Source of the DNA: Desulfatibacillum sp.
GTDB lineage: Bacteria; Desulfobacterota; Desulfobacteria; Desulfobacterales; Desulfatibacillaceae
Direction of reading: 5' to 3'
Length of the DNA stretch: 57,702 nucleotides
NCBI GenBank assembly: GCA_016342355.1
Contig: JAEINP010000035.1
Span: 1 to 57,702 of the forward strand
Shown here: one piece after another, positions 12,745 through 29,651 of the stretch
How positions within the stretch are numbered: position 1 is the stretch's first letter
Layout: each line of letters begins with the position of its first letter
The notes under the pieces: model-generated
Told to the model about the DNA's origin: nothing
Seen by the model: the letters and a program-made list of their open reading frames with translations, nothing else
Databases searched by the model: none
Program-made: the position numbers and the translations under genes

Positions 12745-12827
12745 GCCTGCCTCCTTCCGGTCCGAGGGTCTGGCCGGGGTACGTCGCGGGTCCCGGCGTT
12801 GGCCGGGATCAGCCGGTTGGCGGATTT

Positions 12828-13400
12828 TTACTCAAGCCCGAGCAGGCGGGCCACCTCTCCCTTGAGTTGAGACAGGGGCAGGGGTTTGGAAAAGCACACG
12901 TCTGCGCCGTATTCCTTCATCTTGGCGAATTTTTCTTCATCAAGATAGGCTGACAGCACAATGATTTTGGTGTTTTTGGTTTCCTCGCCGGTTTTGATTT
13001 TCCGGCAGACCTCGTAGCCCTTGATATCGGGCATCATGATGTCCAGGATCAGGATATGGGGTTTGAAATGATTGACCTGCAGCCCGGCCTCGAATCCGTC
13101 GGAAGCGGAAATGACCTCGTAGTCGTAGGTATCCTCTTCCAGGGCCTGGACAATGGTTTCCACGATAATCGGATCATCATCCACCACCAGAATGCGCTTT
13201 TTCACGTCCTCGGGCTCCGTTTCGGGAATGGGGATCCCTTGCTTGCGCATAAACGTTTCCAGGTCCTCTTGTTTGATGCGCCGATGTCCGCCTACGGTTT
13301 TATAGGCCGGGATATGACCGGACTCAATCCAGTTGATGATGGTTTTGGGGGACACGTTACAGATTTGGCTGGCTTTGAAAACAGTCAGTATGTCTTCCAT
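12828..13400 (-). CDS. MerR/excisionase-type HTH fused to a response-regulator receiver
   Basis: The 190-residue protein has an N-terminal winged-helix of the excisionase/BldC type (residues 5-55: FKASQICNVSPKTIINWI, then KTVGGHRRIKQEDLETFM) followed by a full receiver domain (about 68-188) with the acidic pocket VVDDD, the phospho-acceptor Asp120 in ILDIMMPD and Lys172 in FSKPLP. This order, DNA-binding domain first, is unusual for response regulators. AGGAGG precedes the ATG. It lies 84 bp upstream of the divergent metF paralog on the same strand, so it is a good candidate regulator of that operon. No partner kinase gene is adjacent. Confidence 0.9.
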   Translation of the reverse strand: MEDILTVFKASQICNVSPKTIINWIESGHIPAYKTVGGHRRIKQEDLETFMRKQGIPIPETEPEDVKKRILVVDDDPIIVETIVQALEEDTYDYEVISASDGFEAGLQVNHFKPHILILDIMMPDIKGYEVCRKIKTGEETKNTKIIVLSAYLDEEKFAKMKEYGADVCFSKPLPLSQLKGEVARLLGLE

Positions 13401-13799
13401 GGGCGGCCTCCTTCTGCCATTGCAGGCTTGTTACTTTCTATTTATTATAGTTTTTATAGTTAAGTCAAGAAATTTTTTAAAGGGAAGAATAATTTTTGAA
13501 TTTTTATATAGTGACATGTAATTAAACATAATTTGCACTAATTATATTTAACTTATAGGGTTTTTTCTGGATTATGATCAAATCTAAAATCTATAAATTC
13601 TATAATAAGTATAGTACGGGGTCTGGTCCGCTCCCCGGCCAAAACAGACCCCTGCAAAATGGAAAACTTGAAAATCGCGCGCGGGATTTTAAAAAATTGA
13701 ACAATAGTTGAAAAAAATCCCCCCTGGCCATACTTCTCCTTGAAAAAAATCGCTGGGAAGAGTAAGATACGCCCAAACCTCTGGGGGGGAGAGTCCCAA
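13401..13799. other. AT-rich intergenic region between divergent genes
   Basis: About 400 bp separates the HTH-receiver gene (leftward) from the PAS-GGDEF gene (rightward). The 13,430-13,620 part is markedly AT-rich compared with the flanking coding DNA and should hold both promoters. I see no convincing gene, RNA or repeat, and no promoter hexamer pair that I would defend. Confidence 0.5.
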
Positions 13800-14738
13800 A
13801 TGCACCTGTTCAAAAAAACCGACCTGACAGACACCGTTGAGTTCTATAAAAGCCTGCTGGATAAAATGCTGGAGGGGGTTTATTTCGTCACCCCGGACCG
13901 CGTCATCACCTATTGGAACTCCGGGGCTGAAAAGCTGACCGGGTACAAGGCTTCTGAAGTCATCGGTAAAACATGCTCTCACAACATCATCATGCATGTG
14001 GACCGATGGGGCCATAACCTGTGCGGCACAGGCTCGTGCCCCGCCCAAAAGACCATGCAGGACGGCAAGGCCCGGGAAGTGGCCGTGTCGTACCACCATA
14101 AGGACGGACACCTGGTGCCCGCCGTGGCCCGGTTTATCCCTTTTCGGGACGCCAACGGGGCCATTGTGGGGGCTGTGGAGGTCTTCCATGACACCACGCC
14201 CCTCATGTGCGAACGGGACAAGGCCGACCACCTGCGCCGCCTTTCCCTGGTGGACCCCCTCACCAACCTGGCCAACCGACGATTCGCCGAAATCCGCATG
14301 GCCGCCAAACTCAACGAGTTTTCCCGCTACGGATGGCCCTTTGGCATCCTTTTTTGCGATGTGGATGATTTGAAACAGGTCAACACCCTGTACGGGCGGG
14401 CCGTGGGGGACAATGTGCTCAAGGCCATTGGCAAGACCCTGGAAGGCAACCTGCGCACCTCGGATTTTATTTCCAGGTGGGGGGATGACGAGTTTTTGAT
14501 CATCCTGGCCAATGTGGACAAGCAAACTCTGGGCAGGGTCGCCCAAAAGGTGGAGCGGCTGGTGGCCAACACCAAGGTCCACCTGGACCCTGTGGATCGG
14601 GGCAAGGTGGTGAACGTGACCAATTCCATAGGCGGGGTCATCGCCCAGTCAGACGACACCGTGGAAAGACTGCTCCAACGGGCCGACGAACTCATGTACC
14701 GCAGCCGTCACGCGGGCGTCAACCAGGTTTCCGAGTAG
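13800..14738 (+). CDS. PAS-GGDEF protein, putative diguanylate cyclase with GDDEF signature
   Basis: I start at MHLFKKTD because GGGGGAGAG lies directly upstream (312 residues). Residues about 15-135 form a PAS domain (YFVTPDRVITYWNSGAEKLTGY) with a His/Cys-rich insert (CSHNIIMHVDRWGHNLCGTGSC) that could bind a metal, haem or a redox signal. Residues 145-305 are a GGDEF domain (LVDPLTNLANRR). The signature reads RWGDDEF, so the second Gly is Asp. An inhibitory-site RxxD (RTSD) sits exactly five residues before it. The enzyme would make c-di-GMP, but the substitution makes activity uncertain. A PilZ effector is encoded at 37,147. Confidence 0.85.
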   Translation: MHLFKKTDLTDTVEFYKSLLDKMLEGVYFVTPDRVITYWNSGAEKLTGYKASEVIGKTCSHNIIMHVDRWGHNLCGTGSCPAQKTMQDGKAREVAVSYHHKDGHLVPAVARFIPFRDANGAIVGAVEVFHDTTPLMCERDKADHLRRLSLVDPLTNLANRRFAEIRMAAKLNEFSRYGWPFGILFCDVDDLKQVNTLYGRAVGDNVLKAIGKTLEGNLRTSDFISRWGDDEFLIILANVDKQTLGRVAQKVERLVANTKVHLDPVDRGKVVNVTNSIGGVIAQSDDTVERLLQRADELMYRSRHAGVNQVSE

Positions 14739-14819: not shown

Positions 14820-17800
14820 CTATCTTATGGAAAAACGGGATAGAGATAAGCCTTTTGCCTCGTCCAGCACACTCCTGATCATTTGCGCCATTTCGGATCT
14901 GATGATGGGCTTCATCAGCAGCCCTTTGATTCCGGCGGCTTCCGCGTTTTCCTTATTGATCCTTTCGCTGAAACCCGTGCAAATAATAATGGGAATGTCA
15001 GGCCTTATGGAAATCAACTTCAGGGCAAGCAGGTCTCCGGTCATGTGAGGCATGGTCATGTCGGAAATCACCAAATCAAAAGCCGAGGGATTTGCCTGGA
15101 AAGCCTTGAGGGCATCGGAACTGCTCGTGCGCTCTGTGACATGATACCCCAGGCGTTCCAGCATTTGTTTTTCCAGGCGGACAACGGGTTCTTCATCGTC
15201 AACCAGCAGAATACGCTCGTTGCCTTTGGGATCATCTCTGATGAGTTCAATTGGTATTGATGCGATAGTTTTTTCCATCAATGGCAGATAAATAGTGAAG
15301 GTGGTCCCTTTTCCCACTTCGCTGTAAACCCTCACATCCCCGTTATGCTCCTTGATGATGCCGTAGGCCACGGCAAGCCCCAGGCCCGTACCCTTGCCCT
15401 GGGCCTTGGTGGTAAAATACGGCTCAAAGATTTGGTCCATTATGCCCGGATCAATGCCCGAGCCCGTGTCGGAAATCCGCATCACCGCATATTTGCCGGG
15501 CGCAAGAGGGCTGCCCGACACATCCTCGGCCTCCAAAACCGTTTCCTTCAGCTCCACGTCAATTTTTCCGCCGTGCTGGTCCATGGCATGATAGGCGTTG
15601 GTGATCAGATTCATGACAATCTGGTGGATTTGCGTCGGGTCCGCCATTACCAAGCCGCAATCCATTTGGATGTCGTGAGAGATGTCAATGTCCGATGGGA
15701 TGGTGGACCGGCTCAGTTTGAGAACTTCCTTCAGGACCTGTTGAACCCTGACCGGTATTTTTGTCTGCTCTGATTGGCGACTGAATGCGAGAATCTGTTT
15801 AACCAGATCGCTGGCTCTTTTTCCTGCTATAAAAATTTCCCGTGCGTTCTCATGTTCATTGCTGCCTTCGGGCAGATCTTCCAAAAGCAGTTCCGACATA
15901 CCCACGATTGGGGATAACAGATTGTTGAAGTCATGGGCAATGCCCCCGGCCAGATTGCCGATGGATTCCATCCTTTGCGCCTTTTGTAGTTGAACAATGA
16001 GGAATTCCTTTTCCTTTTCCATCCGCCTGCGTTGAATCTGTTCCCACGCACCGCTCATCAGCAGACTCAGTTGGTTAAGATCGGCCTCATTATATGGATT
16101 GAGCTTATTGGACACCGCTGCAACCAGCACAATGCGGCCTCCGTCGAACACCGGAACAGACATGAATCGGGAAACCGCAATATGCCCTTCTGGATATCCT
16201 TTCTTGGCCGGGTGCGGAGCGCTGTAATCATTAAAGATAATTGCTTTTCGATTGCGTACCGGCTCTCCCCAAAGGCCGGCCTGATCAATGGGAAAAGTGA
16301 TGGGTTTGTCTTGGATGGCGCATTTTTCCATGGCCGCCGAAGACCACGCATGAATATGCATGACCTGCTCGTCGTCTGTAATGAATCCCAAAAACCCTAT
16401 TTCGCTATCCAATAGAGCAACCATCTTTTCCAGAATAATATCACAGATTTCCTTTTCCGAGGCATCGACCATATTTTGGACAATATGAATGATTTCCAGC
16501 CGCATTTTGTTGAGCCGGTCCTCCCGTTGTGCGCCCTTTCGTTCCGTGATATCCCGGGAAACCCCGATGACGGACTGCACCACCCCGCCCTCGCCGAACT
16601 CGGGGTTCATTTGAAGTTCAAGCGTAATCCAGCCATCATGCGATTCTATGTCGAACTCAATTAGCCGTACTTCCCCGGTTGCAAAAACCTCGTCGATATT
16701 TTTTTCCCACAACTCACACAAATGGCCGGGAAAACCCATTTCCCGATAGGTCTTGCCCAGAAACTGTGCGGGAGGTAGCCCTGTAGATTCAATTGCTTTG
16801 TGATTGGCGAAAATATGCCGGTGGTTCCTGTCATAGCGCATAATATAGTCGCCGGAATTTTCCACGATGGCGTTGTATTGGGATTCCCTTTGCCGCAGTT
16901 CTTCTTCAGCCCGTTTGCGTTCGGTGATGTCGAGGAAAACAACAATCCCGGCGGTGACGTTTCCCTCCGTATTGGTGACGGGGGAAGCATTGGCCCACAC
17001 GATGCGGTCGTCATTTTCCATGCGGCGAATGATAAATTCGCGACTGCATGTCTCGCCAAACTGGATGGCTCGCGCCAGGGGTACTTCATCGGCCGCCAAT
17101 GGCCTGCCGTCAAGATCCAAGAGATTCCAGCTTGCCACATACTGATCGATTCCAACCCCGTTCACCATGCTTTCCCGTGTGCCGCCACGGATAAGCAGGC
17201 CCGCGTCGTTCACATAGCGCAGGGCGCCCCCGGGGGCTTCCGCAATGGCGATACCTGCTTGGCTGTTGTCCATGGCCGCTCCTAAAAGGGCCTGGGTTTC
17301 TATCAGTTCCGCTGTTCTGACAGCAACCTGCTTGCGTAAAGACCAGGACCACAGGAACGAGGCCAAGACCAGCAGAAACAACGGGACGGCGGCCATGGCC
17401 ACATAACGAAGAATAGTGGAAAGGTTGGTATGCGATTCCTCATAGATTCCAAGCCACTTATTATGGATACGCCGGTATTCGCCGGTTTCTTCGAGAATCT
17501 TCAACCCTTCGCTGAACTGCGCCAGAAGAGCCTTATGGTTGTTGGGTACGGCATAGCAATATTCCGTGGACAGAAGCGGACGATGTCCCAAGTCCAGACT
17601 CGTCCATTTGTTTTTTTTGATTAAGTAGAGTGCAGTAACTCTAGACGACAGCGCACAATAGTACTTCCCCTCGGCCACAGCCTTCAGTGCGTCTTCCTGG
17701 GTTTCGACGAGAGACAGTTGGTCTGTAAGCCCATGTTTTAATGCATAGTCATATATTATGTCGCCCTTTTGGATGACGATGCGTTTGTCCTTCAATTTCT

Positions 17801-18926
17801 CCATTGTCGCCGGAGGAGCGCCTTCCCCTTTGCGCACAGCGCTGACATAATGGTTCATGGTATGCGGAGGTGTGAAGTCGAATTTCAGGTCTCTTTCCGT
17901 GGAGTAAAACATGCCTTGCAAAGCGTCTATCCGGCCATTTTCAAGCTCTTCCACGGCTTCCGACCAGGGACCCAAACGAATCTCTATATCCAGGCCCATC
18001 TCCCGGGCTATGGCCCGCGTTAAATCCACATTGAAACCGGCAGGTTGTCCGTTTTCATCCAGGAATTCATAGGGTGGGTAGTTGTAATCCCCTCCTACTA
18101 TTATTCGGCGATTAGTGTGCAGCTCCAAAGCGGCAAACCATTTGGCGTGGAGGTGGCGGTAGGTTCCGTCCGCCATGACCAGGGCAAGTCCCTCGTTCAG
18201 GAGCGCCAGGGTGTCCCGGTCGCCTTCCTTGACGGCAAAGCTCCAATCCTGGCGGAATTCAACAATGGGTTGGTTGACAATTTGCAGGTTGGTAAGCCCG
18301 GTTTCCTGGATGAGGCGCAGTGCCACAAGCCGCTGAATAACCACGGCGTCGTAACGGCCTTGAGAAAGATCGTCAAGCGCTTTTTGAAACGTATCCGTGG
18401 TATGGATATTGATTCCAAGGTTTTTTCTCCGTAAAAATTCTTCGGCGTTGTCGCCTTTCATGACAGCGACCTCGCGCCCTTTCAGGTCCTTCATGTCCCG
18501 GATGTCAGTCGAATCTTTTCGAACCACAATGGCCCCATGAAGCGACATGTACGGGAAGGTGAAATCAAAAATATCTTCCCGCTCAGGAGTTCGGCCAACA
18601 AGAGGCAGAGCCTGGACCTCACCCTGTTCCAGCCACTGTTTAACCTCAGCCCATGGCCCGGTTCGAAATGTGACATCGCGCCCCATGGATTTAAGCGCTG
18701 CTCGCATAAGCTCTACTGAAAAACCCATGGCCCGGCCGTCCTCATCGACCGAACAAAAAGGAGGATAGTCGATTTCAGAGCCGGAGGTGATGATCGGTGT
18801 CCTGTTCAAGGGGAATTCAGCCGCGCAGACGGAATCCCCCCAAAAAAGGAAAAGGGCCAGAAACGTCAAAAAGATGGCAAAGGAGATGGGGTATTGCGTG
18901 GAAGAAAACTTGGAATGAATAGTCAT
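14820..18926 (-). CDS. Hybrid sensor histidine kinase with two periplasmic solute-binding domains
   Basis: The 1368-residue protein (start chosen at MTIHSKFSS, which opens a signal peptide ending near CAAEF) has two tandem SBP_bac_3 domains (about 45-265 and 275-495; SGSEIDYPPF and GGDYNYPPYEF), one membrane helix (507-528), two PAS domains (545-670, 680-795), a GAF domain (820-965), HisKA with His998 (GGIAHDFNNLL), an HATPase (about 1095-1210) and a C-terminal receiver (ILLVDDEEP, VISDMTMP). The layout resembles BvgS but with a GAF domain and no Hpt. The tandem domains suggest sensing of an amino acid or similar small ligand. The ribosome binding site is weak (GAAAAGCGACC). The output partner is not encoded nearby. 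Confidence 0.9.
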   Translation of the reverse strand: MTIHSKFSSTQYPISFAIFLTFLALFLFWGDSVCAAEFPLNRTPIITSGSEIDYPPFCSVDEDGRAMGFSVELMRAALKSMGRDVTFRTGPWAEVKQWLEQGEVQALPLVGRTPEREDIFDFTFPYMSLHGAIVVRKDSTDIRDMKDLKGREVAVMKGDNAEEFLRRKNLGINIHTTDTFQKALDDLSQGRYDAVVIQRLVALRLIQETGLTNLQIVNQPIVEFRQDWSFAVKEGDRDTLALLNEGLALVMADGTYRHLHAKWFAALELHTNRRIIVGGDYNYPPYEFLDENGQPAGFNVDLTRAIAREMGLDIEIRLGPWSEAVEELENGRIDALQGMFYSTERDLKFDFTPPHTMNHYVSAVRKGEGAPPATMEKLKDKRIVIQKGDIIYDYALKHGLTDQLSLVETQEDALKAVAEGKYYCALSSRVTALYLIKKNKWTSLDLGHRPLLSTEYCYAVPNNHKALLAQFSEGLKILEETGEYRRIHNKWLGIYEESHTNLSTILRYVAMAAVPLFLLVLASFLWSWSLRKQVAVRTAELIETQALLGAAMDNSQAGIAIAEAPGGALRYVNDAGLLIRGGTRESMVNGVGIDQYVASWNLLDLDGRPLAADEVPLARAIQFGETCSREFIIRRMENDDRIVWANASPVTNTEGNVTAGIVVFLDITERKRAEEELRQRESQYNAIVENSGDYIMRYDRNHRHIFANHKAIESTGLPPAQFLGKTYREMGFPGHLCELWEKNIDEVFATGEVRLIEFDIESHDGWITLELQMNPEFGEGGVVQSVIGVSRDITERKGAQREDRLNKMRLEIIHIVQNMVDASEKEICDIILEKMVALLDSEIGFLGFITDDEQVMHIHAWSSAAMEKCAIQDKPITFPIDQAGLWGEPVRNRKAIIFNDYSAPHPAKKGYPEGHIAVSRFMSVPVFDGGRIVLVAAVSNKLNPYNEADLNQLSLLMSGAWEQIQRRRMEKEKEFLIVQLQKAQRMESIGNLAGGIAHDFNNLLSPIVGMSELLLEDLPEGSNEHENAREIFIAGKRASDLVKQILAFSRQSEQTKIPVRVQQVLKEVLKLSRSTIPSDIDISHDIQMDCGLVMADPTQIHQIVMNLITNAYHAMDQHGGKIDVELKETVLEAEDVSGSPLAPGKYAVMRISDTGSGIDPGIMDQIFEPYFTTKAQGKGTGLGLAVAYGIIKEHNGDVRVYSEVGKGTTFTIYLPLMEKTIASIPIELIRDDPKGNERILLVDDEEPVVRLEKQMLERLGYHVTERTSSSDALKAFQANPSAFDLVISDMTMPHMTGDLLALKLISIRPDIPIIICTGFSERINKENAEAAGIKGLLMKPIIRSEMAQMIRSVLDEAKGLSLSRFSIR

Positions 18927-19409
18927 GGTCGCTTTTCCGTCTATGGTCTTAAGAAGTCGCTCATTACTTTTACGATGCCAGGGATTTTCTGACAAACTGA
19001 ACCAGCCCATCCTTGTGTGGAGAACATACTGGAAAATGTACACTATTAAGTGTTCTCTTGCCATGCAAATTATGTTCCAAATCATTTACCCAAATTGGCG
19101 TCCCGCGCCCATTGACGGCTTATACGATGGCTGCTGAGGACATCCAAGTTAGTGAGGATTTATTCCAAGAAGGCATTGTGTGGCATCGGAAAGAAGAATC
19201 CAAATCGAACGCCTGGCGTTCCAAAGAGATTCCCGGAAGGATGTGTGAATGGAAATGGCAACAGATATTCTGCTTGTGTATGGCCGTTTGGGCAAAGAAG
19301 GCTGATCGCCCACAGCCTTCCACTTCATGATGATGGACGTCAGCAGAAAAACGCTCAATGTTTTTTGGGACGGCGAGTTTCCGGAAAGGATTCCCGCCGG
19401 ATAAATTTC
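18927..19409. other. Intergenic region without a recognisable gene
   Basis: About 480 bp between the hybrid kinase and the cohesin-like lipoprotein gene. Short frames on both strands lack ribosome binding sites and family features. The kinase promoter should lie in the left part. I see no RNA gene or repeat here. Confidence 0.45.
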
Positions 19410-20006
19410 CTATAACGTTTGCCCCGGGCACAGCACCATGCCGGAAAACCCATCCTCTGCATCGCAAGAGGAAACCAGGCTGGGCCAATCCTGAATATCA
19501 TCCTTGAAATTCCTGAAACCAAAATCCGGCGTCCCCTGGCCGATCACCTTGAAGTGCAGGATAAAAAGGTCTCCATTTGCCCCGGTGGCCAAAGGCGTGA
19601 TTCCTGCTTCAATGCCGCCCATACGCAGTTTTCCGGGCTTAACCACATTGGCGCCAAACATGGCGAATCCCTTGTTCATAAGCCCTGTCCGTTCATACTT
19701 TTCAAATTTTAGAACAGCCGGGTTGAACCAAATCTCATAGCCCATTGCCCGAACGCCGGATGGGGCGTTTTGAACCCCCAACGTCGCAGTCAGTGAAGTT
19801 CCAGGGATTAGCTGCTTTTTATTTTCTTCGGGACGCAGAAGGCTGGAGGCAGCCTTGGCGGGCGCCGCCGTTTGGACGACGGGTTTCTCCAAGACAGATG
19901 CCGGGGACGCTTCGGCCCGAGGCTGGCTACCGGCTGAAAGGCTTTGGCACCCGGTCACAAGTATGATCAACAAGACTGAAAGAATCCATTGATAAAACGT
20001 TTTCAT
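19410..20006 (-). CDS. Lipoprotein with a cohesin-like domain
   Basis: The 198-residue product has a lipoprotein signal (ILVTGC, Cys at about residue 20), a Pro/Ala-rich linker and a cohesin-like beta-sandwich from about residue 60 (TSLTATLGVQNAPSGVRAMGYEIWFNPAVLKFEKYERT ... RMGGIEA ... GDLFILHFKV). It ends in FKDDIQDW, which matches the DDLxGW motif ending the cohesin domains of the two upstream neighbours. AGGAGAAAACA precedes the ATG. It is likely anchored in the envelope and may bind dockerin-bearing proteins. The fold is inferred from motif pattern and neighbours. Confidence 0.75.
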   Translation of the reverse strand: MKTFYQWILSVLLIILVTGCQSLSAGSQPRAEASPASVLEKPVVQTAAPAKAASSLLRPEENKKQLIPGTSLTATLGVQNAPSGVRAMGYEIWFNPAVLKFEKYERTGLMNKGFAMFGANVVKPGKLRMGGIEAGITPLATGANGDLFILHFKVIGQGTPDFGFRNFKDDIQDWPSLVSSCDAEDGFSGMVLCPGQTL

Positions 20007-20090
20007 TGTTTTCTCCTAAACACACTCAAACCATGTATGAGCAACTATTGATGGAATCCTTTGCGGACCATCGACTTTTTGGGATACCTG

Positions 20091-21302
20091 CTAACTGGCA
20101 TCATGCTCCCGAGACGCAGGATGCAATTCCTTTCCGGGATTGGACCATGTGAAAACCGGCCCCTGCACCACCAGGCTGCCAGATTTTTCCAGGAACCGGA
20201 GCTTCCGATAAATCAGGACCAACATAAAAAGAATGGCGGACAAGACTGCAATCAGCACAATAACCAACACCAGAACAACCACCAGAAGCGTTACCACCAA
20301 GGAAGGCATCCAGTCCGAGATGCCGGACATTCCGGATACAGGGGGGCGATTCAAGTCGTCTGAAGTACTGGAAGATTGAGAACCCCTCCCGGGAAAAGCC
20401 CGGGGTTTTCGGGAAATCAAAGAACCTGCAGAATCCGACTTATTGAACATGCCGCCCGGTTGGCTTACAGAAGGGTTGCCATTCCGGAAGCTGTTGATTT
20501 CGGCGATTTTGTCCTTTATGGGTACAAAATTCTCTGGTGCGTTTCTCTCTGCGTCAGGAGAGATTGCGTCCTTGGATGGCGTGGAGGCATCTTCCACCCG
20601 TCCGAAGCCTTTCCCGGCAACAACCGATGTTACGGATGCCCGATCCACAGTGCTCGCCGGGTCGTTTGTACTCTCTTCACCGGTTTCGTCCTGCTCCGGA
20701 GCCGCCGCACTGGAAATTGCGCCGCCGCCTCCGGAAGTCGAATCATTCTGTCCAGCGTCCTGCTGATCAGCCTCGTCTTGTTTTCTGCTGTTGTTTTGGG
20801 TGTCCGATTCCGTTTGGGTTTCCTCTTCCTCAACCTCGGGTTCCTCGGTCAGGTCGTCCCGGGTAAGATACCCCGGGCTGGCGCGCCACCCTGCCAAGTC
20901 GTCTTTGAGAACCCCAAAAGAAATAGGGCTATCCCGGTCTCCGGTTATCCGGAAGGTCAGGTGAAGGAAGGCTCCGGCATCCCCCTGGGCTATCCCCAAC
21001 TCCATGGGGTCCACGGCTCCAACCCGGATAATTCCTGGCTGGTATTCGTTTACAATCATCATGGGATATCCCGAATCCCCCAGCGGCCCGCGCTTATATC
21101 CCGCATAGGTAAGCGCCGCAGGATCATACTTGATATCCATGATCAGCGCCTTGACATCATTGGGTGCGCTATCCACAGACACGGTGAATGAAACCGTGCC
21201 TCCCTGCCTCCCATGGAGGGAGTCAATGGCAAGACCTCCTGCATGACAGAAAGAGACTGCACAAAGAAGCAGTAGGACAGCGTATCGGGCAATAATTTTC
21301 AT
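20091..21302 (-). CDS. Membrane-anchored cohesin-like protein
   Basis: I start at MKIIARYAV (403 residues); a TTG two codons upstream is possible. A signal peptide ends near CHAGG. Residues about 22-155 form a cohesin-like domain (GRQGGTVSFTVSVDSAPNDVKALIMDIKYDPAALTYAGY, RVGAVDP, FLHLTFRI, KDDLAGWRASPGYLTRDD). A long acidic, Ser/Thr/Gln-rich linker (about 155-325) follows. A strong membrane helix near residues 335-370 (SLVVTLLVVVLVLVIVLIAV) is followed by a short tail beginning with basic residues. The layout is that of a surface anchor: cohesin outside, flexible stalk, membrane anchor. Its neighbours carry a dockerin and related cohesin-like domains. Confidence 0.8.
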   Translation of the reverse strand: MKIIARYAVLLLLCAVSFCHAGGLAIDSLHGRQGGTVSFTVSVDSAPNDVKALIMDIKYDPAALTYAGYKRGPLGDSGYPMMIVNEYQPGIIRVGAVDPMELGIAQGDAGAFLHLTFRITGDRDSPISFGVLKDDLAGWRASPGYLTRDDLTEEPEVEEEETQTESDTQNNSRKQDEADQQDAGQNDSTSGGGGAISSAAAPEQDETGEESTNDPASTVDRASVTSVVAGKGFGRVEDASTPSKDAISPDAERNAPENFVPIKDKIAEINSFRNGNPSVSQPGGMFNKSDSAGSLISRKPRAFPGRGSQSSSTSDDLNRPPVSGMSGISDWMPSLVVTLLVVVLVLVIVLIAVLSAILFMLVLIYRKLRFLEKSGSLVVQGPVFTWSNPGKELHPASREHDAS

Positions 21303-21325
21303 GATCAAGGCCTTTTTGCTGAAGG

Positions 21326-21365
21326 ACCGGGCGGCAGGGGCTTGAAAAAGCCCCTGCCGCCCGGT
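21326..21365. promoter_or_regulatory. Perfect 18-bp hairpin between the dockerin and cohesin genes
   Basis: An 18-bp uninterrupted GC-rich stem with a GAAA loop lies between the dockerin gene stop (21,388) and the next start (21,302). Its U-run (TTTT) is on the plus-strand side, so for the minus-strand genes it is not a standard terminator. It could stabilise the upstream mRNA, act as a processing site or partly terminate. Confidence 0.6.
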
Positions 21366-21387
21366 TTTATCGCTGAATCAACCTGAT

Positions 21388-24222
21388 CTATAACACATCA
21401 TCCAGGCAACTGGGTAATTCAAGGTATTTATTCAGCATGCACATGCTGTCTGCGGCCGTGCAGTCGCAGTCCATGTTCACGTCGCAGGGCGTGCTTTCGC
21501 AGGGGCTGCAGGTTGTGTCGCACACCAGCGTGGCTTTTTCCAGGGCGCACAGGGCGTCGGAAGGCGACACATCGCCATCCAGGTTGATGTCTCCGTCAGC
21601 CCTGGTCAGGCAGCCCGGCGTGGCGGTCCAGCCCTCCAGGTCGTCGATGAGGTTTTGGAGCCCCACCCGTGTCACCTGGGCGGTTATGGGCGTGAAACGG
21701 ATAAAGGCCAGGATGCCATCAGCGCCCGACTGGATTGCGTTACCAAGGGTGTAGGCGCCTATACGCACCACGCCAGGGGCCACCAAATTGGCATCCCAGT
21801 AGTCAAAGGTCCCCAGGATTTCACCGTCAATGCCGATAACGTCCGTGATCACGCTGTCAAACTGGAGGATTGCAGGATCAAAAGTGACTTCAAAACCCAG
21901 GGCATCCACCACATTGGGGGCGTCCTTAATCCTGATAGGCACGTCCAGGGTTCCGCCGGTGCAGTAGGGCTGGCCCATCACGTCCAGGTCGCCGTTGTCG
22001 TTTTCCAGGCACCCTTCTTCAGGCGTCAAGACCACTCCGACGGGAATTCCGTCTGATTTGTAAGCCATAGTGACAATCTGGCCGTTGTTGTTGATTTTTG
22101 GGTGATACGCGCTCCATATAACGCCCACCACGTCATGCGCCATCTGCTCAAGGAGCAATTCTGTGGTGGTCAGTACCTGCTCCGTTTGGAGCGGAGAGTA
22201 TGCCGCCGGAACAAAATTGTGTTCCGCGCCCATAACAAGGTCCAGGTTCACCGGGTTATTGTTGTAGGCTCCGTCGGCTCTCTGCCACATAACCAGATGC
22301 CAATTCATGAAGTTCGTGTCATTATAGGCATAACCCACGATTTCTCCATCGTCATTCACATCGGTGGCTATGGCATAGGAATATCCGGGCAACGGGTTTA
22401 ACGGGGTTGGAGTTCCACCAGGTTCGCGAACAAAGGCCCGACTGGTCTCCTGAGTAACCGCCCACTCAATCATTGTTCCGCAAACCAGACCACTGTTGTT
22501 TATTCCCGTGGGCATGCATACATAGTTCTCATATTTCATAGTCCTGGCCGGAGGATCATCCTTATCCCAAATGACGCCTTCCGCGCCGAATGTTAATAGA
22601 AAAATTGTATTTATGCCCGTTCCCACTACCTGTCCGTACTCATTCAGGTCCGCAGCGGAGTTATAGACACCGCCATTAAAACCGGCAATGGTCTCCAATA
22701 AACGGCCTCTCTCCCACAAAGATCCGGGCATTCCCATGCTGCTGGCCATTTCACCCTGGTTGTTTATGAGCACCCTGTTAGCAATATAGAACGGGTTCCC
22801 AAACGTCATAAATCCCGTACTGGATTCATATTCCACACTCATGGTCCCGGTAATGGGGCCGGAAAACGGGGTGTAACCAAATTGTGCAAAATGATCCTCA
22901 TCCCCCTGCATTGCCAGTCCAGCCACAATGCCATGATCATTGATATCCGTCGCAACTCCGGTGTCATACTCAGGAAACAGCAGGACCGGGTCACCGCTTC
23001 CCTCCCAAACAAAAGGCCTTAAATAATGGGTGTTAGACACGGGATCGGACATGCCTCCCACAACTATCCCCTGGTTGTTGATTTCCCTTGGCATGAAAAA
23101 AGCACCGGATTCGCCGCCACTCTCGCCCCCCTCCGGAATCACGTTGGGAGTTGGAATTTCAGCCAATCCATAGCTGGTGCGATCAGGAGAATCGGCTGTC
23201 TGGGCAGGACTATCAGGCCCATCGGCAAAATCAACTGTGCTTATACTTGCGATACAGGGACCGTTTTGGCCCGTTCCTACAAGGATCTTGCCGTCGTTGC
23301 CAATTGCATGAATACGGGTATCTTGTCCAATTTCCAAAACGACCCCATTTCCTTCTGGATCGACGATTAGGCCTGCAAGATAGCTGGAATAGGCGTTTGG
23401 CAACGTGCCGCACAAGTATTCCGCCACATGTTCCAGGCCCTTAGCTTCCTTCCCAAGCCGGGTATAACCCGACGCAAGATTATTGTTGCTTGCTCCCGTA
23501 ACCCAAGTGTCACACCGCGCATTATGGGATAAGTAATCCAGGGGACCTATAAATTGCCAGGGATCTGCATCTGCAATAAGCATGAATCCGTGCCAACCAT
23601 CCCCATCCTGGTATGACCCCACAATAATGTTATTATCATTGATATCAAAAGCAATGGTCTGGCTAACCACGCGATTGATGTCATCCGGGAAACTCACATC
23701 CCTATAAGTGGTCCCGTCCCAAAAGAAACTTTCCAGCACCGTACCAGTGGAAATCAGTTCAGTTCCAGTCACCGGGATGGTTACTCCGACATATTTGCCG
23801 CTATCATTTATGCCGTTGATTATGGTTCGTTGTCCGGAACGGGTGACCGTTTGGGTGGTAAATAGTCCCGTATCGTAAATAAATCCGTACTCGAAGTTGG
23901 GATCTGTAGCGCTGTCCACGTAATAGCCAGCAATGAATTCACCGCTGTTGGTTATATCCATGGGGCGTGTTGAAGCCTGATCCGCCAGCGAGGGCAAAGA
24001 AAAGGCGCTGATCACCTCATTTTCCATTGTGATACCGCCAATCTCGGTAAACCCCACAATGAGCCCTGCATCGCTAACTCCTTGCAAATTCATGGACTCA
24101 TATCCTGAATCCATGAACATCTGGTGTTCAAATTCCAGGGCGCTTGCAATCCCAACGCCCCATAGCAAAAAGATAAGACACACCACCATTGTCCCAAAAC
24201 CATTTTTACATTTTCTTTCCAT
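21388..24222 (-). CDS. HAF-repeat extracellular protein with cohesin-like and dockerin domains
   Basis: I start at MERKCKNGFG because AGGAGATGTT lies directly before this ATG (944 residues). A signal peptide ends near GIASALEF. The body (about 30-725) is a series of HAF-type repeats (INDSGKYVGV, INDNNIIVGSY, INNQGIVVGG, INDHGIVAGL, VNDDGEIVGYAY), a beta-propeller-like pattern. A cohesin-like domain follows (about 745-885, ending DDLEGWTATPGCLTRAD), then a C-terminal type-I-like dockerin with two calcium loops (DINLDGDVSPSDALCALEKA and DVNMDCDCTAADSM). Having cohesin and dockerin in one chain allows self-assembly or scaffold building. The organism shows no cellulase genes here, so a non-cellulosomal role is likely. 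Confidence 0.82.
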   Translation of the reverse strand: MERKCKNGFGTMVVCLIFLLWGVGIASALEFEHQMFMDSGYESMNLQGVSDAGLIVGFTEIGGITMENEVISAFSLPSLADQASTRPMDITNSGEFIAGYYVDSATDPNFEYGFIYDTGLFTTQTVTRSGQRTIINGINDSGKYVGVTIPVTGTELISTGTVLESFFWDGTTYRDVSFPDDINRVVSQTIAFDINDNNIIVGSYQDGDGWHGFMLIADADPWQFIGPLDYLSHNARCDTWVTGASNNNLASGYTRLGKEAKGLEHVAEYLCGTLPNAYSSYLAGLIVDPEGNGVVLEIGQDTRIHAIGNDGKILVGTGQNGPCIASISTVDFADGPDSPAQTADSPDRTSYGLAEIPTPNVIPEGGESGGESGAFFMPREINNQGIVVGGMSDPVSNTHYLRPFVWEGSGDPVLLFPEYDTGVATDINDHGIVAGLAMQGDEDHFAQFGYTPFSGPITGTMSVEYESSTGFMTFGNPFYIANRVLINNQGEMASSMGMPGSLWERGRLLETIAGFNGGVYNSAADLNEYGQVVGTGINTIFLLTFGAEGVIWDKDDPPARTMKYENYVCMPTGINNSGLVCGTMIEWAVTQETSRAFVREPGGTPTPLNPLPGYSYAIATDVNDDGEIVGYAYNDTNFMNWHLVMWQRADGAYNNNPVNLDLVMGAEHNFVPAAYSPLQTEQVLTTTELLLEQMAHDVVGVIWSAYHPKINNNGQIVTMAYKSDGIPVGVVLTPEEGCLENDNGDLDVMGQPYCTGGTLDVPIRIKDAPNVVDALGFEVTFDPAILQFDSVITDVIGIDGEILGTFDYWDANLVAPGVVRIGAYTLGNAIQSGADGILAFIRFTPITAQVTRVGLQNLIDDLEGWTATPGCLTRADGDINLDGDVSPSDALCALEKATLVCDTTCSPCESTPCDVNMDCDCTAADSMCMLNKYLELPSCLDDVL

Positions 24223-24829: not shown

Positions 24830-25258
24830 ATGAGTCGATTCAAGAAGTTATCACAAACAATTTGGCATTGCCAGTATCACATAGTATGGACGCCCAAGTA
24901 TCGTTACAAAATACTCAAGGGCAAGATTGCCGATGAGGTGGAAAACTGCGTCCGGGCGTTTTCCGCCCAGCAAGGGTTGGAAATCATAGAGCTGAATGTG
25001 CAGATAGACCATGTTCACCTTCTGGTGATGATTCCGCCCAAAGTGTCTGTTTCAGGCTTTGTGGGTACGGTCAAAGGGCGAACGGCTACATTCATTGTAA
25101 GGCGGGTGGGGCGGGCAGACCATGCAAACATTTTGGTTCGTGTTGAAGTCCTTTGCGGGGTTCCTTACCCGCATCGTAACGGAAATGAAGGGCCTGAAAA
25201 ACCTTCAAGCGCAAGAAGAAACCCGCACCCGTCCATCCGGGCCTGTTTGGGGTACTAA
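24830..25258 (+). pseudogene. IS200/IS605-type Y1 transposase, C-terminus replaced
   Basis: The first about 88 residues match the REP/IS200 Y1 transposase family: TIWHCQYHIVWTPKYRYKIL, the HUH metal motif in QIDHVHLLVMIPPKVSVS, and VKGRTA. After about position 25,095 the similarity stops, and the part that should carry the catalytic Tyr is replaced by unrelated sequence in a shifted frame (RVGRADHANILVRVEVLC...). AAGGAG precedes the ATG and the left-end hairpins are present. The element is therefore immobile by itself. It could be a recombination between two elements. Confidence 0.8.
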
Positions 25259-25504: not shown

Positions 25505-26323
25505 ATGTCCAGATCGCGTTGGATGCTTACGCTTGTAGACAAAACTTTTCCAAGGGATATGCGTTGGGCCTGGCTGACCAAAGTCCCGGGCCTTCGGCAA
25601 ATCATCGAGTTTATGTTTTTCCAGGGGGATCACCTGATTATTCTCCCCCGAAACAAGACGGTGGCGGTGGGCCAGGAGGTGGATCAGCCCGGCCAGATGG
25701 CTCTGCCCACGGAATTGGCGGACCAGCTCATCGACAGCATGGACTACCATGTGATCATGAATTTTTGTTTATGCCGAACCTACATGCCCTGCCACGATTA
25801 CCCCAGGGACCTGGGATGCATCTTTATGGGCGAGGCGGCCCGGGGGATCAACCCGGAATGGGGCCGCGCCGTATCCAAGGCAGAAGCCAAGGAACATATC
25901 CAAAAATGCGAGGAAGCAGGGCTGGTCCATGTGGTGGGCAAAAGCAAGCTGGACACGGTGTGGCTTGGCATAGGTCCGGGTGAAAAGCTCCTAACAATCT
26001 GCAACTGCTGCCCGTGCTGCTGCATCACGCGGATCATACCCCACTCCCACAAAATATTCGGCGAAAAGCTGGTGAGGGCGCCGGGAGTGGAAGTGTTTGT
26101 CCGGGAGGACGATTGCGTGGGATGCGGCACATGCACGGAGAACATGTGCATTATGGGAGCCATTTCCATGGAGGACGGCAAAGCGGCAATCGATCAGGAT
26201 GCATGCCGCGGGTGCGGACGCTGCGTTGAGGCCTGCCCTGCCGACGCCATTTCCCTGACCATAGACAGCAAATTTTTCATGGAGGAGTCGGTCCGTCAGA
26301 TTGGGGCGATCGTGTCCATGTGA
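25505..26323 (+). CDS. 4Fe-4S ferredoxin-type protein
   Basis: I start at MSRSRWMLT because AGGGAGGAAAAAACC lies just upstream (272 residues). The N-terminal two thirds contain a Cys-rich region (NFCLCRTYMPCHDYPRDLGCIFMG and TICNCCPCCCITR) typical of a group of anaerobe ferredoxin-associated proteins. Residues about 200-260 are a classical two-[4Fe-4S] ferredoxin domain (CVGCGTCTENMCIMGAI and CRGCGRCVEACPADAI). It is probably a cytoplasmic electron carrier or redox sensor. It stands alone on the plus strand, converging on the M48 protease gene. The partner is unknown. Confidence 0.88.
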   Translation: MSRSRWMLTLVDKTFPRDMRWAWLTKVPGLRQIIEFMFFQGDHLIILPRNKTVAVGQEVDQPGQMALPTELADQLIDSMDYHVIMNFCLCRTYMPCHDYPRDLGCIFMGEAARGINPEWGRAVSKAEAKEHIQKCEEAGLVHVVGKSKLDTVWLGIGPGEKLLTICNCCPCCCITRIIPHSHKIFGEKLVRAPGVEVFVREDDCVGCGTCTENMCIMGAISMEDGKAAIDQDACRGCGRCVEACPADAISLTIDSKFFMEESVRQIGAIVSM

Positions 26324-26367
26324 CAGGATATTGGCCGCAATCTGTTTTGTTTGGGGCCGTTCCCGGC

Positions 26368-27912
26368 TTACTTGAATTCCTTGGAGCGCCAGTCTATGGG
26401 GCCGAACCCTGTCTTCTGGCGCTCTTCCACACGCCATGTGATTGAGGAGCCCCAGCCGTACAGGGGATTAAAGGATGCATCCGGGTCTTTTTCCTGATCC
26501 TTATCCTTGTTGTCACCGTCCTTGCCTTTTTTCTTGCCCCCCCGGTCTGCCATTTTTTCCAAGGCATTTTTAATTTTTTCTTCAAGCTCCGGGTTGTTCG
26601 CGGCAAGGCTTAGGGCCTTTTTCAGGTGAAAGTCGGCGTTCCGTGTGTCGTGCCGCCTCATGTGATAAACGCCCAGAAAATAATGGGCTTTATCCAGGGT
26701 ATTCATACGTCCGTAAACTTGGCCCAGGTAGTAGTATATATCGTCGTCTTTGTTGTTTATCTCCCTGGCTTTTTCCAGGGATCGGGCTGCGTTTTCCAGG
26801 TTCCCGGATTCCATTTGCACCCTGCCCAGCCATAAAAATCCCGAGACGCCCCTGGGGGCGGCCTCCGTCGCGCTAGTGAGCGAGGCCAGGGCCTCAGAAA
26901 CCTGACCAGCCTCAAACTGGGCTTTACCGAGTTCCGTCAGGATATCGGGATCGAATGGCGACAGGGCGAGAGCCTTTTTCAGTTCTTCCACAGCCAGGCT
27001 GCGGTTGTTTGTCCGGGCAAGGATGGTGCCGTATCCGTAGTGCAGCAGGGGGAGGTCGGGATTGTTCTGCACGGATTTGGCGAGTTTATCCAGGGCAAAA
27101 TCCGGGTCGCCATAAAGAGCCGACAGCCTGATTCTCATTTTGTTGTAGGGGTAAGGGTCGATCTGCCGTTTCACATGTTGGGCTTGGGGATTGGCCTGGA
27201 GCCACGTGTTGAGGTTGACAAAGCGGTCCTCCACAGCCGGATGGGTGGAAAGATAGTCCGGGATCTGATCCTTGCCAAACCATGTTTTGGAGCGCATGAC
27301 CTGCATGGCTTCCACAAGGCCCTGGCCGCTGTATCCAGCCTTGAGAAGGTATTGTACGCCAATTTCATCGGCCTGGGATTCGTCGGCCCTGCTGTACGCC
27401 AGCATGGTGCTGGTGGCGCCTGCCGAGGAAAGCACGGCTCCTGCGGGAAACCCGGCTATGAGGCTGGCTATCATGCCCACGGCCGAAGCCGCCGAGACCT
27501 TTTTGTTTTTATCTATCTTCTCCGAAATATGGCGGCAGGTGACATGGGCGATTTCATGGGCCATGATTCCCGCCAACTGATCCTCGTTGGTCAGGGCTTC
27601 GATGAGCCCGGCATTGATCACCACAAATCCGCCAGGACCTGCAAATGCATTGTAAACGCTTTCGTTAGCCACAAAAAAACGGAACTCAAAGGGCTGGGCA
27701 GGAACGCCTTGCAGCAGTATCGCCCCGATTCTCCGGACCGGCTCCACAATAACCGGGTCCTCGATGAACTGCATGTGCTGCTGGAGGTAGTCCATGTATT
27801 TCTCCCCCAGTTCCTTTTCCTCTGAAACGGAAAGGGCCAGACAGGGGGTTGCCAGGGGGCCGAGCGTCAACACAAAGACGAGCAGGCACAGTGCTTTTTT
27901 AAGGCGGGTCAT
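26368..27912 (-). CDS. BepA-type M48 metalloprotease with TPR repeats
   Basis: The 514-residue protein has a signal peptide (MTRLKKALCLLVFVLTLGPLATPCLA), an M48 peptidase domain with the zinc motif H119-E-I-A-H123 (MAHEIAHVTCRH) and the third ligand Glu178 (RADESQAD), then TPR repeats from about residue 285 to 455 and a Lys/Asp-rich tail. This matches the periplasmic BepA/YfgC family, which helps assemble or degrade outer-membrane proteins. The C-terminal extension after the TPRs is longer than in E. coli BepA. It is a single transcription unit converging with the ferredoxin gene. Confidence 0.9.
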   Translation of the reverse strand: MTRLKKALCLLVFVLTLGPLATPCLALSVSEEKELGEKYMDYLQQHMQFIEDPVIVEPVRRIGAILLQGVPAQPFEFRFFVANESVYNAFAGPGGFVVINAGLIEALTNEDQLAGIMAHEIAHVTCRHISEKIDKNKKVSAASAVGMIASLIAGFPAGAVLSSAGATSTMLAYSRADESQADEIGVQYLLKAGYSGQGLVEAMQVMRSKTWFGKDQIPDYLSTHPAVEDRFVNLNTWLQANPQAQHVKRQIDPYPYNKMRIRLSALYGDPDFALDKLAKSVQNNPDLPLLHYGYGTILARTNNRSLAVEELKKALALSPFDPDILTELGKAQFEAGQVSEALASLTSATEAAPRGVSGFLWLGRVQMESGNLENAARSLEKAREINNKDDDIYYYLGQVYGRMNTLDKAHYFLGVYHMRRHDTRNADFHLKKALSLAANNPELEEKIKNALEKMADRGGKKKGKDGDNKDKDQEKDPDASFNPLYGWGSSITWRVEERQKTGFGPIDWRSKEFK

Positions 27913-28082
27913 GGTATCCTTTCAAAGACAACTATTGGAACAATTGGAACTTCTAATATTTTTTTTCATTTTCTCTCATTATATTAATCATCTGTCTTGG
28001 CATTGTCGAGGTTTTTATTCCCGAAACAGCCGACAGGGTTTAGACTGGCCTTTGGATGATTGGGTTATTTACTCCCGGCAAA

Positions 28083-28167
28083 CCCCTGCAAAAGGCCTCG
28101 CCCCCTTGATCTGACCCGCCTGTTAGGGCATAGTAAATCATCAAGAACCATCAACCTTTTGCAGGGG
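28083..28167 (+). promoter_or_regulatory. Leader hairpin overlapping the glpK ribosome binding site
   Basis: A perfect 13-bp inverted repeat, CCCCTGCAAAAGG (28083-28095) and CCTTTTGCAGGGG (28155-28167), lies in the 5-prime leader of glpK. The right arm runs into the G-rich Shine-Dalgarno tract that ends just before the ATG at 28,173. If both arms are in the transcript, pairing would hide the ribosome binding site, so translation could be controlled by an RNA, protein or ligand. The promoter position is not known. Confidence 0.5.
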
Positions 28168-28172
28168 GGGGC

Positions 28173-29651
28173 ATGAGCGATTACATACTTGCCATAGACC
28201 AGGGAACCACCGGTTCCACCGTATTGCTCCTGGACGGGGAGCTTAATCTTGTTTCCCGGGGATACCGGGAGTTCCGCCAGATTTACCCCAAACCGGGCTG
28301 GGTGGAACACGATCCCGGAGACATCTGGAATTCCGTGACGGGCGCCATTGCCGACGCCCTGAAGGAATGGGGCATGGAAAGCCCGGCCATCAAGGCCATT
28401 GGCATCACCAACCAGCGGGAAACCTCCATCATCTGGGATAGGCAGACAGGCCGTCCCTTGCATAACGCCATTGTGTGGCAATGCCGGAGAACTGCGGACA
28501 TCTGCCAAAAACTGAAAGCAGCCGGACACGAGGACCTGTTCCGGCAAAAAACCGGTTTGGTCCTGGACCCCTATTTTTCCGGCACCAAATACAAATGGAT
28601 ACTGGACCATGTGGCGGGCCTTCGGGAGTCGGCCCTGGCCGGAAAAGTCGCCGCAGGCACGGTGGACTCCTATTTGGTCTATCGCCTGACCAACCGACAA
28701 AGCCATGTGACGGATGTTTCCAATGCATCCCGGACCCTGCTCATGGACATCCACAAGGGATGCTGGGACCCGGAGCTCTGCTCCATCCTGGACGTTCCCC
28801 AGTCCATCCTGCCTAAGATAGTCGGTTCGGCTGAAGTGTATGGTTACACCAAAGGCGTACCCGGCCTGGCGGACGGCATTCCGGTCAGCGGCATGGCAGG
28901 GGATCAACAGGCGGCCTTGTTCGGGCAAGCCTGCTTTTCGCCCGGGGAAGCCAAGTGCACTTATGGCACCGGGGCTTTTCTCCTGATGAACACGGGCGAT
29001 ACACCGGCCATTGGCACAGGCGGCCTGTTAGGAACCATCGCCTGGAACCTGGACGGGACCATGCAATACGCCTCGGAGGGTTCCGCCTTTATAGCCGGCG
29101 CTGCGGTGCAGTGGCTGCGGGACAGCCTGGGATTCATCGAAAGCGCCTCCCAGGTGGAAGCCCTGGCAGCCAGCGTGCCCGATTCGGAAGGGGTGATTGT
29201 GGTGCCTGCCTTTGTGGGCCTGGGCGCTCCCCACTGGAGGCCCGAAGCCCGGGGGATTATCACCGGCCTGACCCGGGGCACCTCCCGCGCCCACATCGCC
29301 CGGGCCACCCTGGAAGGCATCGCCCTCCAGAACGTGGATATCCTGAAGCTCATGGAGCATGAAAGCGGCAGGGAGATCAAGGCCCTCAAAGTGGACGGCG
29401 GGGCTTGCGCCAATAACCTGCTCATGCAAATGCAGGCGGATTTTCTGGGCTGCACCATTGTCCGGCCCAAGCTGGTGGAAACCACGGCTTTAGGCGCGGC
29501 GTTTTTGGCAGGCCTGGGCGCCGGGTTGTTTTCCGGGGTGGAGGATATCCGCGCATCGTGGAAAGAAGACCGGGTGTTCGAGCCGAAAATGAAAGAGGAC
29601 CAACGCGAGGAAATCCTGGCCAAATGGCGTGAGGCGGTAGGCAAGGCGTAA
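28173..29651 (+). CDS. glpK: Glycerol kinase
   Basis: A 492-residue FGGY-family kinase close to the usual length of about 500. Hallmarks of glycerol kinases are present: DQGTTGSTVLLLD (phosphate 1), ITNQRETSIIWDRQTG, NAIVWQCRRT, and GMAGDQQAALFGQ with TYGTGAFLLMNTG (nucleotide site). It phosphorylates glycerol to glycerol 3-phosphate for lipid synthesis or catabolism. No glpF or glpD is next to it. The G-rich leader (GGGGGGGC before ATG) can fold with an upstream arm. Confidence 0.95.
   Translation: MSDYILAIDQGTTGSTVLLLDGELNLVSRGYREFRQIYPKPGWVEHDPGDIWNSVTGAIADALKEWGMESPAIKAIGITNQRETSIIWDRQTGRPLHNAIVWQCRRTADICQKLKAAGHEDLFRQKTGLVLDPYFSGTKYKWILDHVAGLRESALAGKVAAGTVDSYLVYRLTNRQSHVTDVSNASRTLLMDIHKGCWDPELCSILDVPQSILPKIVGSAEVYGYTKGVPGLADGIPVSGMAGDQQAALFGQACFSPGEAKCTYGTGAFLLMNTGDTPAIGTGGLLGTIAWNLDGTMQYASEGSAFIAGAAVQWLRDSLGFIESASQVEALAASVPDSEGVIVVPAFVGLGAPHWRPEARGIITGLTRGTSRAHIARATLEGIALQNVDILKLMEHESGREIKALKVDGGACANNLLMQMQADFLGCTIVRPKLVETTALGAAFLAGLGAGLFSGVEDIRASWKEDRVFEPKMKEDQREEILAKWREAVGKA

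Follow-up and report, generated by a model that had tools for sequence, protein, structure and literature searches.

A recurrent three-gene cohesin–dockerin set in Desulfatibacillum that may form a docking scaffold in the cell envelope

The question raised by a locus of Desulfatibacillum sp. (contig JAEINP010000035.1, positions 1 to 57,702; this whole stretch of 57,702 nucleotides is the window) is what three neighbouring cohesin genes do in a bacterium in which no GH5 or GH9 cellulase is found. On the minus strand, where all features described here lie, are gene A (21388..24222; signal peptide, HAF/DUF3466-like repeats, cohesin and C-terminal Cys-rich dockerin), gene B (20091..21302; signal peptide, cohesin, tether, transmembrane helix and basic tail) and gene C (19410..20006; lipoprotein with a single cohesin). 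The open frame of A begins at 24273 with a likely start at ATG 24222, where the preliminary description of this DNA also ended the locus, and that of B begins at 21308 (TTG) with a likely start at ATG 21302. All three proteins exceed the Pfam Cohesin cut-off (PF00963, 24.1 bits; A 31.2, B 38.8, C 27.4), and the three adjacent cohesin-like genes of the preliminary description are positioned as it had them. Its remark that there is no cellulase here holds, for families GH5 and GH9, in the organism's own genome, which has no match to either at E ≤ 0.001 and shows no multi-cohesin protein; a cellulosome is thereby rejected. The reading that we favour, at a probability of about 0.55 and drawn from sequence, is that the trio forms a plug-and-socket scaffold devoted to docking in the envelope of anaerobic, Gram-negative cells.

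The cohesins of A (21595..21990, assigned by Pfam, profile and model), B (20853..21236) and C (19452..19844; both by Pfam and by subfamily alignment and profile) share the ending earlier noticed as DDLxGW: DDLEGW in A (21628-21645), DDLAGW in B (20886-20903) and DDIQDW in C (19485-19502), that is, DD(L/I)xxW. Because all ten aligned subfamily cohesins have the DD and nine of them the W, this motif is, as judged from the alignment, a signature of the subfamily by homology, chance being excluded. The xASPGxLTR-like ends said to occur in two genes are likewise found, as TATPGCLTR in A and RASPGYLTR in B, and C has none. The C cohesin was missed by the Pfam model in a six-frame search of the whole genome and detected by a scan of the protein itself and by the subfamily profile. 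Besides C, the genome shows cohesin matches at six separate sites, and each open frame concerned, that of C included, carries one. Structure models without a cohesin fold had been named as a refutation; the model of the A module has the nine-stranded cohesin fold (pLDDT 88.2; Z 14.8 and 2.3 Å over 125 residues against the type I cohesin 5nrm), which leaves the proposal standing; B and C are assigned as cohesins through profile homology.

A profile comparison with solved structures indicates that N-C-D of 4ums, which we take to be the residues forming the known type I contact, are replaced by A/L/G in the subfamily of the trio, so that dockerin binding by these cohesins is not assured. This loss would be in keeping with a reading of the cohesins as adhesion modules for a polysaccharide or protein other than a dockerin, in an adhesin cluster like those of sulfate reducers partnering methane-oxidising archaea; an aggregation role for the cohesin/dockerin proteins of syntrophic sulfate reducers is indeed proposed in passages of PMC10553843. 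Such a role is quite unlikely here, however, since the dockerin loops are complete and are conserved together with the cohesins, and B, apparently an inner-membrane protein, would make a poor adhesin.

The A dockerin (21421..21594; loop pattern, Pfam and profile) contains two complete calcium loops, DINLDGDVSPSD and DVNMDCDCTAAD, with ligands at positions 1, 3, 5, 9 and 12. Its Pfam score (Dockerin type I, PF00404, 20.5 bits) falls just below the cut-off of 22.9, as do those of other related tails (19.5-21.2), whereas three related tails exceed it (27.3, 27.9 and 29.1), and a profile of 14 A-like tails retrieved solved dockerins. Cohesin and dockerin are adjacent, separated by a short linker, in all 14 aligned tails. 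With such proximity it is conceivable that the dockerin caps its own neighbouring cohesin as an intramolecular lock, B and C working apart from A, but the few residues between the last strand (139-142) and the first calcium loop (about 146) should hinder its reach to the cohesin's own face, and the recurrence of B and C alongside A would go unexplained; we regard the lock as highly improbable.

The front of A (22009..24156) consists of HAF/DUF3466-like repeats. Of the HAF repeats and dockerin previously claimed for this protein, the dockerin is sustained by its complete loops, and the repeats are matched above the cut-off by DUF3466 (40.6 versus 25.1 bits) and below it by HAF itself (15.4 versus 22.65 bits). 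The front is likely a beta-propeller, as suggested by a predicted structure of low confidence (pLDDT 56.4, pTM 0.49) whose best 50 Foldseek matches, at TM-scores of 0.05-0.38, are presumably for the most part propeller-bearing proteins. A front built of repeats points to a binding function more than to an enzymatic one.

Membrane anchoring by a long stalk, as had been proposed for one of the three proteins, is borne out by B, in which a low-complexity tether of 184 residues (20301..20852) leads to a single transmembrane helix (20226..20300) followed by a basic tail. The helix is strongly hydrophobic (score 3.72). Among nine B proteins the tether maintains its length (181 ± 16 aa) and has a mean pairwise identity of 15.5%, versus 35.1% for the cohesins of the same proteins. 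Sortase-like C-terminal sorting signals of the GlyGly-CTERM or PEP-CTERM type comprise a fixed motif, then a terminal helix and a basic tail of very few residues; as judged by eye, the nine B proteins have tails of approximately 10 to 50 residues after the helix and no common preceding motif, and a sorting signal is rejected. Because the anchor is an α-helical segment with a basic tail in a Gram-negative cell, B is most likely situated in the inner membrane, with its cohesin in the periplasm. The preliminary term "surface complex" is therefore supported in part, for its components (a lipoprotein, a tethered membrane protein and a HAF-like dockerin protein), the surface being the less likely site for the cohesin of B. 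The lipoprotein is C, with the lipobox LVTGC|Q. A lipobox pattern is found in two of seven C-type proteins (G000 and G117), and visual inspection adds G069 as a third; the remaining four resemble plain secreted proteins, and a fixed outer-membrane anchor is consequently not general.

An initial scan of genome contigs with A alone as the query gave zero matches. The subfamily profile, applied to 291 genomes, matched 20, and regions were examined for 12 genomes of the order. B-type proteins are encoded in nine of these 12, belonging to seven families; a cohesin-plus-dockerin passenger is present in all nine, on the same contig as B in seven, and B and C adjoin in five genomes. C is absent among the subfamily-profile matches of G032, G083 and G047. 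A DDxxW ending and a calcium loop occur in one frame in L101 (G493) and in L152, the latter matched only loosely, in a Methanophagales contig, and left out of the counts, and in none of L103-L107, L110, L168, L172 and L150; the distant matches L142, L145 and L141 are cohesins without the DDxxW ending. With similar sets in distant relatives, the genes look like a dedicated docking system.

A tree of 49 cohesins, bearing labels (N, NA and B2 included) assigned in this analysis, groups them by role over genome: 13 label changes are required, compared with 28.7 in shuffles, none of 200 of which was as low, a count to be read with the bootstrap not settled and with near-copies (three tails of G100) favouring clustering. 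No role forms one clade (3, 4 and 4 changes for A, B and C, respectively). The B cohesins of G000, G117, G077 and G147 form a set at 97/91, and the C cohesins of the same four genomes at 94/81; the four-genome C and A sets are not starred on the tree. Left out of the tree were a 446-residue cohesin protein of G083, G121, eight of the 20 matching genomes (those without examined regions), and the single matches of G047 and G170.

A search of the genome for other dockerins, as the preliminary description had advised, yielded 17 matches, with the Cys-rich class represented only by A and its paralogue; 12 proteins belong to an ordinary class with the motif ...GLxEAIYILQxVAG. These 12 proteins, set against few other cohesins in the genome, give some reason to regard B and C as general receptors for ordinary dockerins, of which A would be just one client or none, and same-subfamily cohesins are in fact fused to ordinary dockerins in G032, G083 and G047. 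Against this, a Cys-rich dockerin (by motif) accompanies B in eight of nine genomes, the ninth, G047, having a related type, and the two classes differ at recognition position 10, where Pro occupies 27 of 32 loops in 17 Cys-rich dockerins versus one of 22 in 12 ordinary ones (the Cys-rich class having been chosen by a mostly Cys-containing motif, so that a count of Cys is circular and the count of Pro less so). A general receptor function thus appears unlikely.

The paralogue of A is located on contig C84, with neither B nor C adjoining, and would have to share the B and C of the trio. Calling the complex "compact" was accordingly too modest, given this second A-type gene and similar sets in other families. 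The two proteins are 41% identical in the front, 78.8% in the cohesin and 89.7% in the dockerin, with dN/dS of about 0.12 and 0.10 in the cohesin and dockerin, respectively. Recent gene conversion of the tails is not favoured because of the divergence at their synonymous sites (pS 0.56 and 0.40); the higher value of the front (0.77) is compatible with an old conversion.

The gap between A and B contains a non-coding, perfect, GC-rich hairpin of 18 bp (21326..21365), and a similar hairpin, by position and folding, lies 3' of the A paralogue. The 17-base arm has four matches in the genome with at most two mismatches (two are the hairpin itself, one lies behind the paralogue with one mismatch, and one is elsewhere with two mismatches); a reversed control pattern has two, so the count proves little alone, and position and folding are what matter. 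Hairpins of this kind are not rare, stems of at least 14 pairs numbering 16 in 288,926 bases of the genome, and no such stem is present in L128, L052, L051 and L130. Two genomes, G000 and G117, show the order A-hairpin-B. Scans for promoters and terminators gave counts close to those from shuffled sequence (9 versus a mean of 6.3, and 12 versus a mean of 7.6, respectively).

A foreign origin of the trio was considered. The flanks are split in a genome of the same genus, G001, in which window positions 25505-29647 and 12803-14733 match a single contig at sites some 59 kb from each other; upstream is an IS200-like transposase, copies of which in G001 are 93-97% identical; and a profile search of the eight other family genomes detected the subfamily in none. 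In its G+C content (52.5%, versus 53.6% for the window), by contrast, the trio bears no foreign mark.

For the favoured scaffold we infer the following binding partners, dependence on calcium, membrane for each anchor and capacity for chains. A would be exported via its signal peptide and fold outside the cytoplasm, its C-terminus serving as a fixed cassette of a cohesin followed directly by a Cys-rich, calcium-binding dockerin. This dockerin would bind the B cohesin, which a tether of near-constant length would hold at the inner membrane, and also that of the lipoprotein C. The A cohesin could accept a dockerin from a second A molecule or from the C84 paralogue, making chains possible. The variable front of A would be the cargo (HAF/DUF3466-like repeats here, other repeats elsewhere) and the cassette its constant attachment part. 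It is possible, if doubtful, that the sequence features reflect a relay across the periplasm, in which inner-membrane B, its cohesin on a tether that would match the periplasm in length, would catch folded, calcium-loaded A, outer-membrane C would take over, and the hairpin would set an excess of A over its anchors; were this true, the exchangeable cargo front would make a modular envelope-assembly system from cellulosome-type parts. A recurrent passenger, tethered anchor and short cohesin make up a minimal system open to experiment, with three proteins, one dockerin and, in the genome, four cohesins. The trio could also yield orthogonal plug-and-socket pairs that are new and whose contact surface differs.

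The A-B hairpin, known from sequence and folding, resembles the stem-loop described in PMC4423207 as controlling the subunit ratio in the cip-cel operon: each is a strong hairpin lacking a long T run, placed after the gene for one subunit, a putative one in the case of A, and before the next gene. The adhesins of syntrophic sulfate reducers and ANME archaea, as presented in passages of PMC10553843 and PMC9012536, are comparable in kind of module, in their occurrence in sulfate reducers and in a patchy distribution probably due to transfer between clades; these passages give domains and expression, and the A-B-C set, the tether and the dockerin classes are absent from them. The review (PMC9012536) states, in the passage concerned, that the presence of cohesin/dockerin modules alone does not reveal function. 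With the cellulosome the trio shares the cohesin fold (Z 14.8 to 5nrm and 14.3 to 1ohz) and duplicated calcium loops, but its genome shows no multi-cohesin protein and no GH5/GH9 match, its contact residues are changed, and it belongs to a Gram-negative envelope. Bacterial and archaeal cohesin and dockerin modules outside cellulosomes, reportedly surveyed by Peer and colleagues in 2009 and catalogued over the years with no function assigned, are a further parallel: here too cohesins and dockerins occur singly, in this case where the genome has no GH5/GH9 match, and the A cohesin fold is near that of the non-cellulosomal cohesin 2xdh of Archaeoglobus fulgidus (Z 14.3). The trio differs from them in its recurrent three-gene set, role-specific cohesins, Cys-rich dockerin class and tethered membrane form. 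It is a variant of the known non-cellulosomal cohesin–dockerin systems, and the new part is the recurrence of the gene set.

The three adjacent minus-strand genes A (21388-24222), B (20091-21302) and C (19410-20006) each encode a cohesin that exceeds the Pfam cut-off and ends in a common DD(L/I)xxW motif, of which the DD is invariant and the W present in all but one of ten aligned cohesins of this DDxxW subfamily. The product of A also contains DUF3466, a weakly scoring HAF repeat match and a dockerin that scores slightly below the Pfam cut-off, with both calcium loops complete. Profile searches with the two modules retrieved cohesin structures (4ums at 2e-9, and 2xdh from Archaeoglobus) and dockerin structures, respectively. 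In an AlphaFold model of the last 213 residues of A (pLDDT 88.2, pTM 0.76), the first part resembles the type I cohesin 5nrm (Z 14.8, 2.3 Å over 125 residues) and 2xdh (Z 14.3), and type II cohesins fit less well (Z about 10-11) than type I. Upstream of A is an IS200-like Y1 transposase (24830-25258, by Pfam), of which a same-genus genome has four copies (93-97% identity; coding flanks about 75-81%). Downstream of C, after a gap of 324 bases, is a large hybrid sensor kinase (14820-19085; two solute-binding domains, PAS, GAF, kinase and receiver by Pfam), the counterpart of which is located elsewhere in the same-genus genome.

The window's own genome (G000; 5.26 Mb in 142 contigs) encodes cohesins in six places by the Pfam model and seven with C added; the DDxxW subfamily accounts for four of these, namely A, B, C and a solitary paralogue of A on another contig (C84), flanked by unrelated genes. 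Identity between A and its paralogue rises from 41% in the front to 78.8% in the cohesin and 89.7% in the dockerin; dN/dS is about 0.12 (cohesin) and about 0.10 (dockerin). The attachment cassette is thus kept while the cargo varies. The dockerin model matches 17 places at E <= 1 (six above the cut-off), comprising A and its paralogue, 12 ordinary dockerins (10 of them C-terminal) and three without the look of a dockerin. The 12 ordinary dockerin proteins are dispersed across the genome (regions L057-L069, L055), with no evident cohesin partner. GH9 and GH5 have no match in G000.

Of 291 genomes from the order, 20 matched the subfamily profile (E <= 1e-6); the eight other genomes of the window's family gave no match. 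In 395 genomes sampled from the phylum, the subfamily profile matched 10 (E <= 1e-8; G000 and some genomes of the order counted again) and the tail profile eight (E <= 1e-12). Open frames were called and profile-scored in regions of 12 of the 20 matching genomes plus G493 and G469. A protein with the architecture of B (signal peptide, cohesin, tether, helix and basic tail) is encoded by nine of the 12, from seven families (G000, G032, G083, G100, G047, G069, G077, G117 and G147), and was not found in the fetched stretches of G081, G170 (53% complete) and G121. All nine also encode a cohesin-plus-dockerin passenger, on the same contig as B in seven (separate contigs in G032 and G147); its dockerin has the Cys-rich motif in eight and a related motif in G047, whose passenger has an internal cassette. 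The passengers carry different fronts: that of the window has DUF3466, that of G100 FG-GAP repeats and that of G047 PKD. Proteins like C (143-198 aa, one cohesin) are encoded in G000, G100, G069, G077, G117, G147 and G081, adjoining B in five genomes; the three genes run A-B-C in G000 and G117, B-C-A in G077 and C-B-A in G069. G493, from a different family of the phylum, has two A-type genes; after each comes a gene for a cohesin protein whose spacer is rich in Thr and in which the helix is replaced by a different C-terminal part.

Adjoining cohesin genes in G032 (L051:6709-12083), G083 (L116:3832-9351) and G100 (L118:1603-6562) is a repeated cluster of a TPR lipoprotein, a sigma factor, a short possible anti-sigma protein and a CHAT-domain protease-like protein, with a FadL-like porin in G032 and, by eye, G083 (Pfam was applied to the members from G032 and to the CHAT protein of G100; the remainder was judged by eye). 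Cohesin proteins in three other regions (L052:12328-14016, L127:5852-7207, L056:6715-11925) have GGCFI/GCFL-like or CF...hydrophobic tails resembling C-terminal surface-sorting signals.

In a tree of 49 cohesins, role labels need 13 changes versus 28.7 in shuffles (none of 200 as low), a clustering that near-copies favour. The cohesins of G000, G117, G077 and G147 group together for B (97/91), for C (94/81) and for A (86/96, nested in a set with G100, 81/84), as would be expected if the three genes had kept separate jobs. No role forms a single clade (A 3, B 4 and C 4 changes), most deep forks being open in a tree whose bootstrap had not settled.

From cohesin to helix, the nine B proteins span 158-212 residues (mean 181, sd 16; ends assigned by hand), with mean pairwise identity of 15.5% in the tether versus 35.1% in the cohesin; the tether keeps its length, not its sequence, as for a spacer. 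The alpha-helical anchor and basic tail of B point to the inner membrane, so that its cohesin would be periplasmic. In E. coli, Gln at Cys+2 sends a lipoprotein to the outer membrane; the Cys+2 residue of C is Gln, and by this rule C would be destined for the outer membrane. Among the seven C-type proteins, two are lipoproteins by pattern and a third by eye, and the other four look plainly secreted. Most likely, A is exported and then folds, and its dockerin would plug into a cohesin, whether that of B, of C or of another A. The cassette would be the constant part and the cargo the exchangeable part. At its most speculative, the system could be a relay from inner to outer membrane.

Loop position 10 (tallied by hand, overlapping false loops excluded) is Pro in 27 of the 32 loops of 17 Cys-rich dockerins; in the 12 ordinary dockerins it is Pro in one of 22 loops and L, M, F or I in 20. 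The A-L-G of the subfamily cohesins aligns with the N-C-D of a type I cohesin. Because both differences fall at the known Clostridium thermocellum contact, of dockerin positions 10-11 with cohesin N37/D39, they are suggestive of the two sides having changed together.

Between A and B is a perfect 18-bp hairpin (21326-21365), within an 86-base stretch predicted to fold at -49 kcal/mol (z -7.2) and with no long T run after it. A nearly identical hairpin follows the A paralogue (z -3.7), and the A-B gap of G117 has one of unrelated sequence (z -6.5); comparable stems occur about once per 18 kb in the examined parts of G000. Such stem-loops reportedly set subunit ratios in the cip-cel operon (PMC4423207), and the A-B hairpin could possibly do likewise.

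Cohesin/dockerin proteins, some highly expressed, are already known from sulfate reducers that partner methane-oxidising archaea, with adhesion as their suggested role (PMC10553843; PMC9012536). No description of the A-B-C set was found in the open-licence literature as judged by titles or abstract starts, and for that reason we count it as a new form of a known system.
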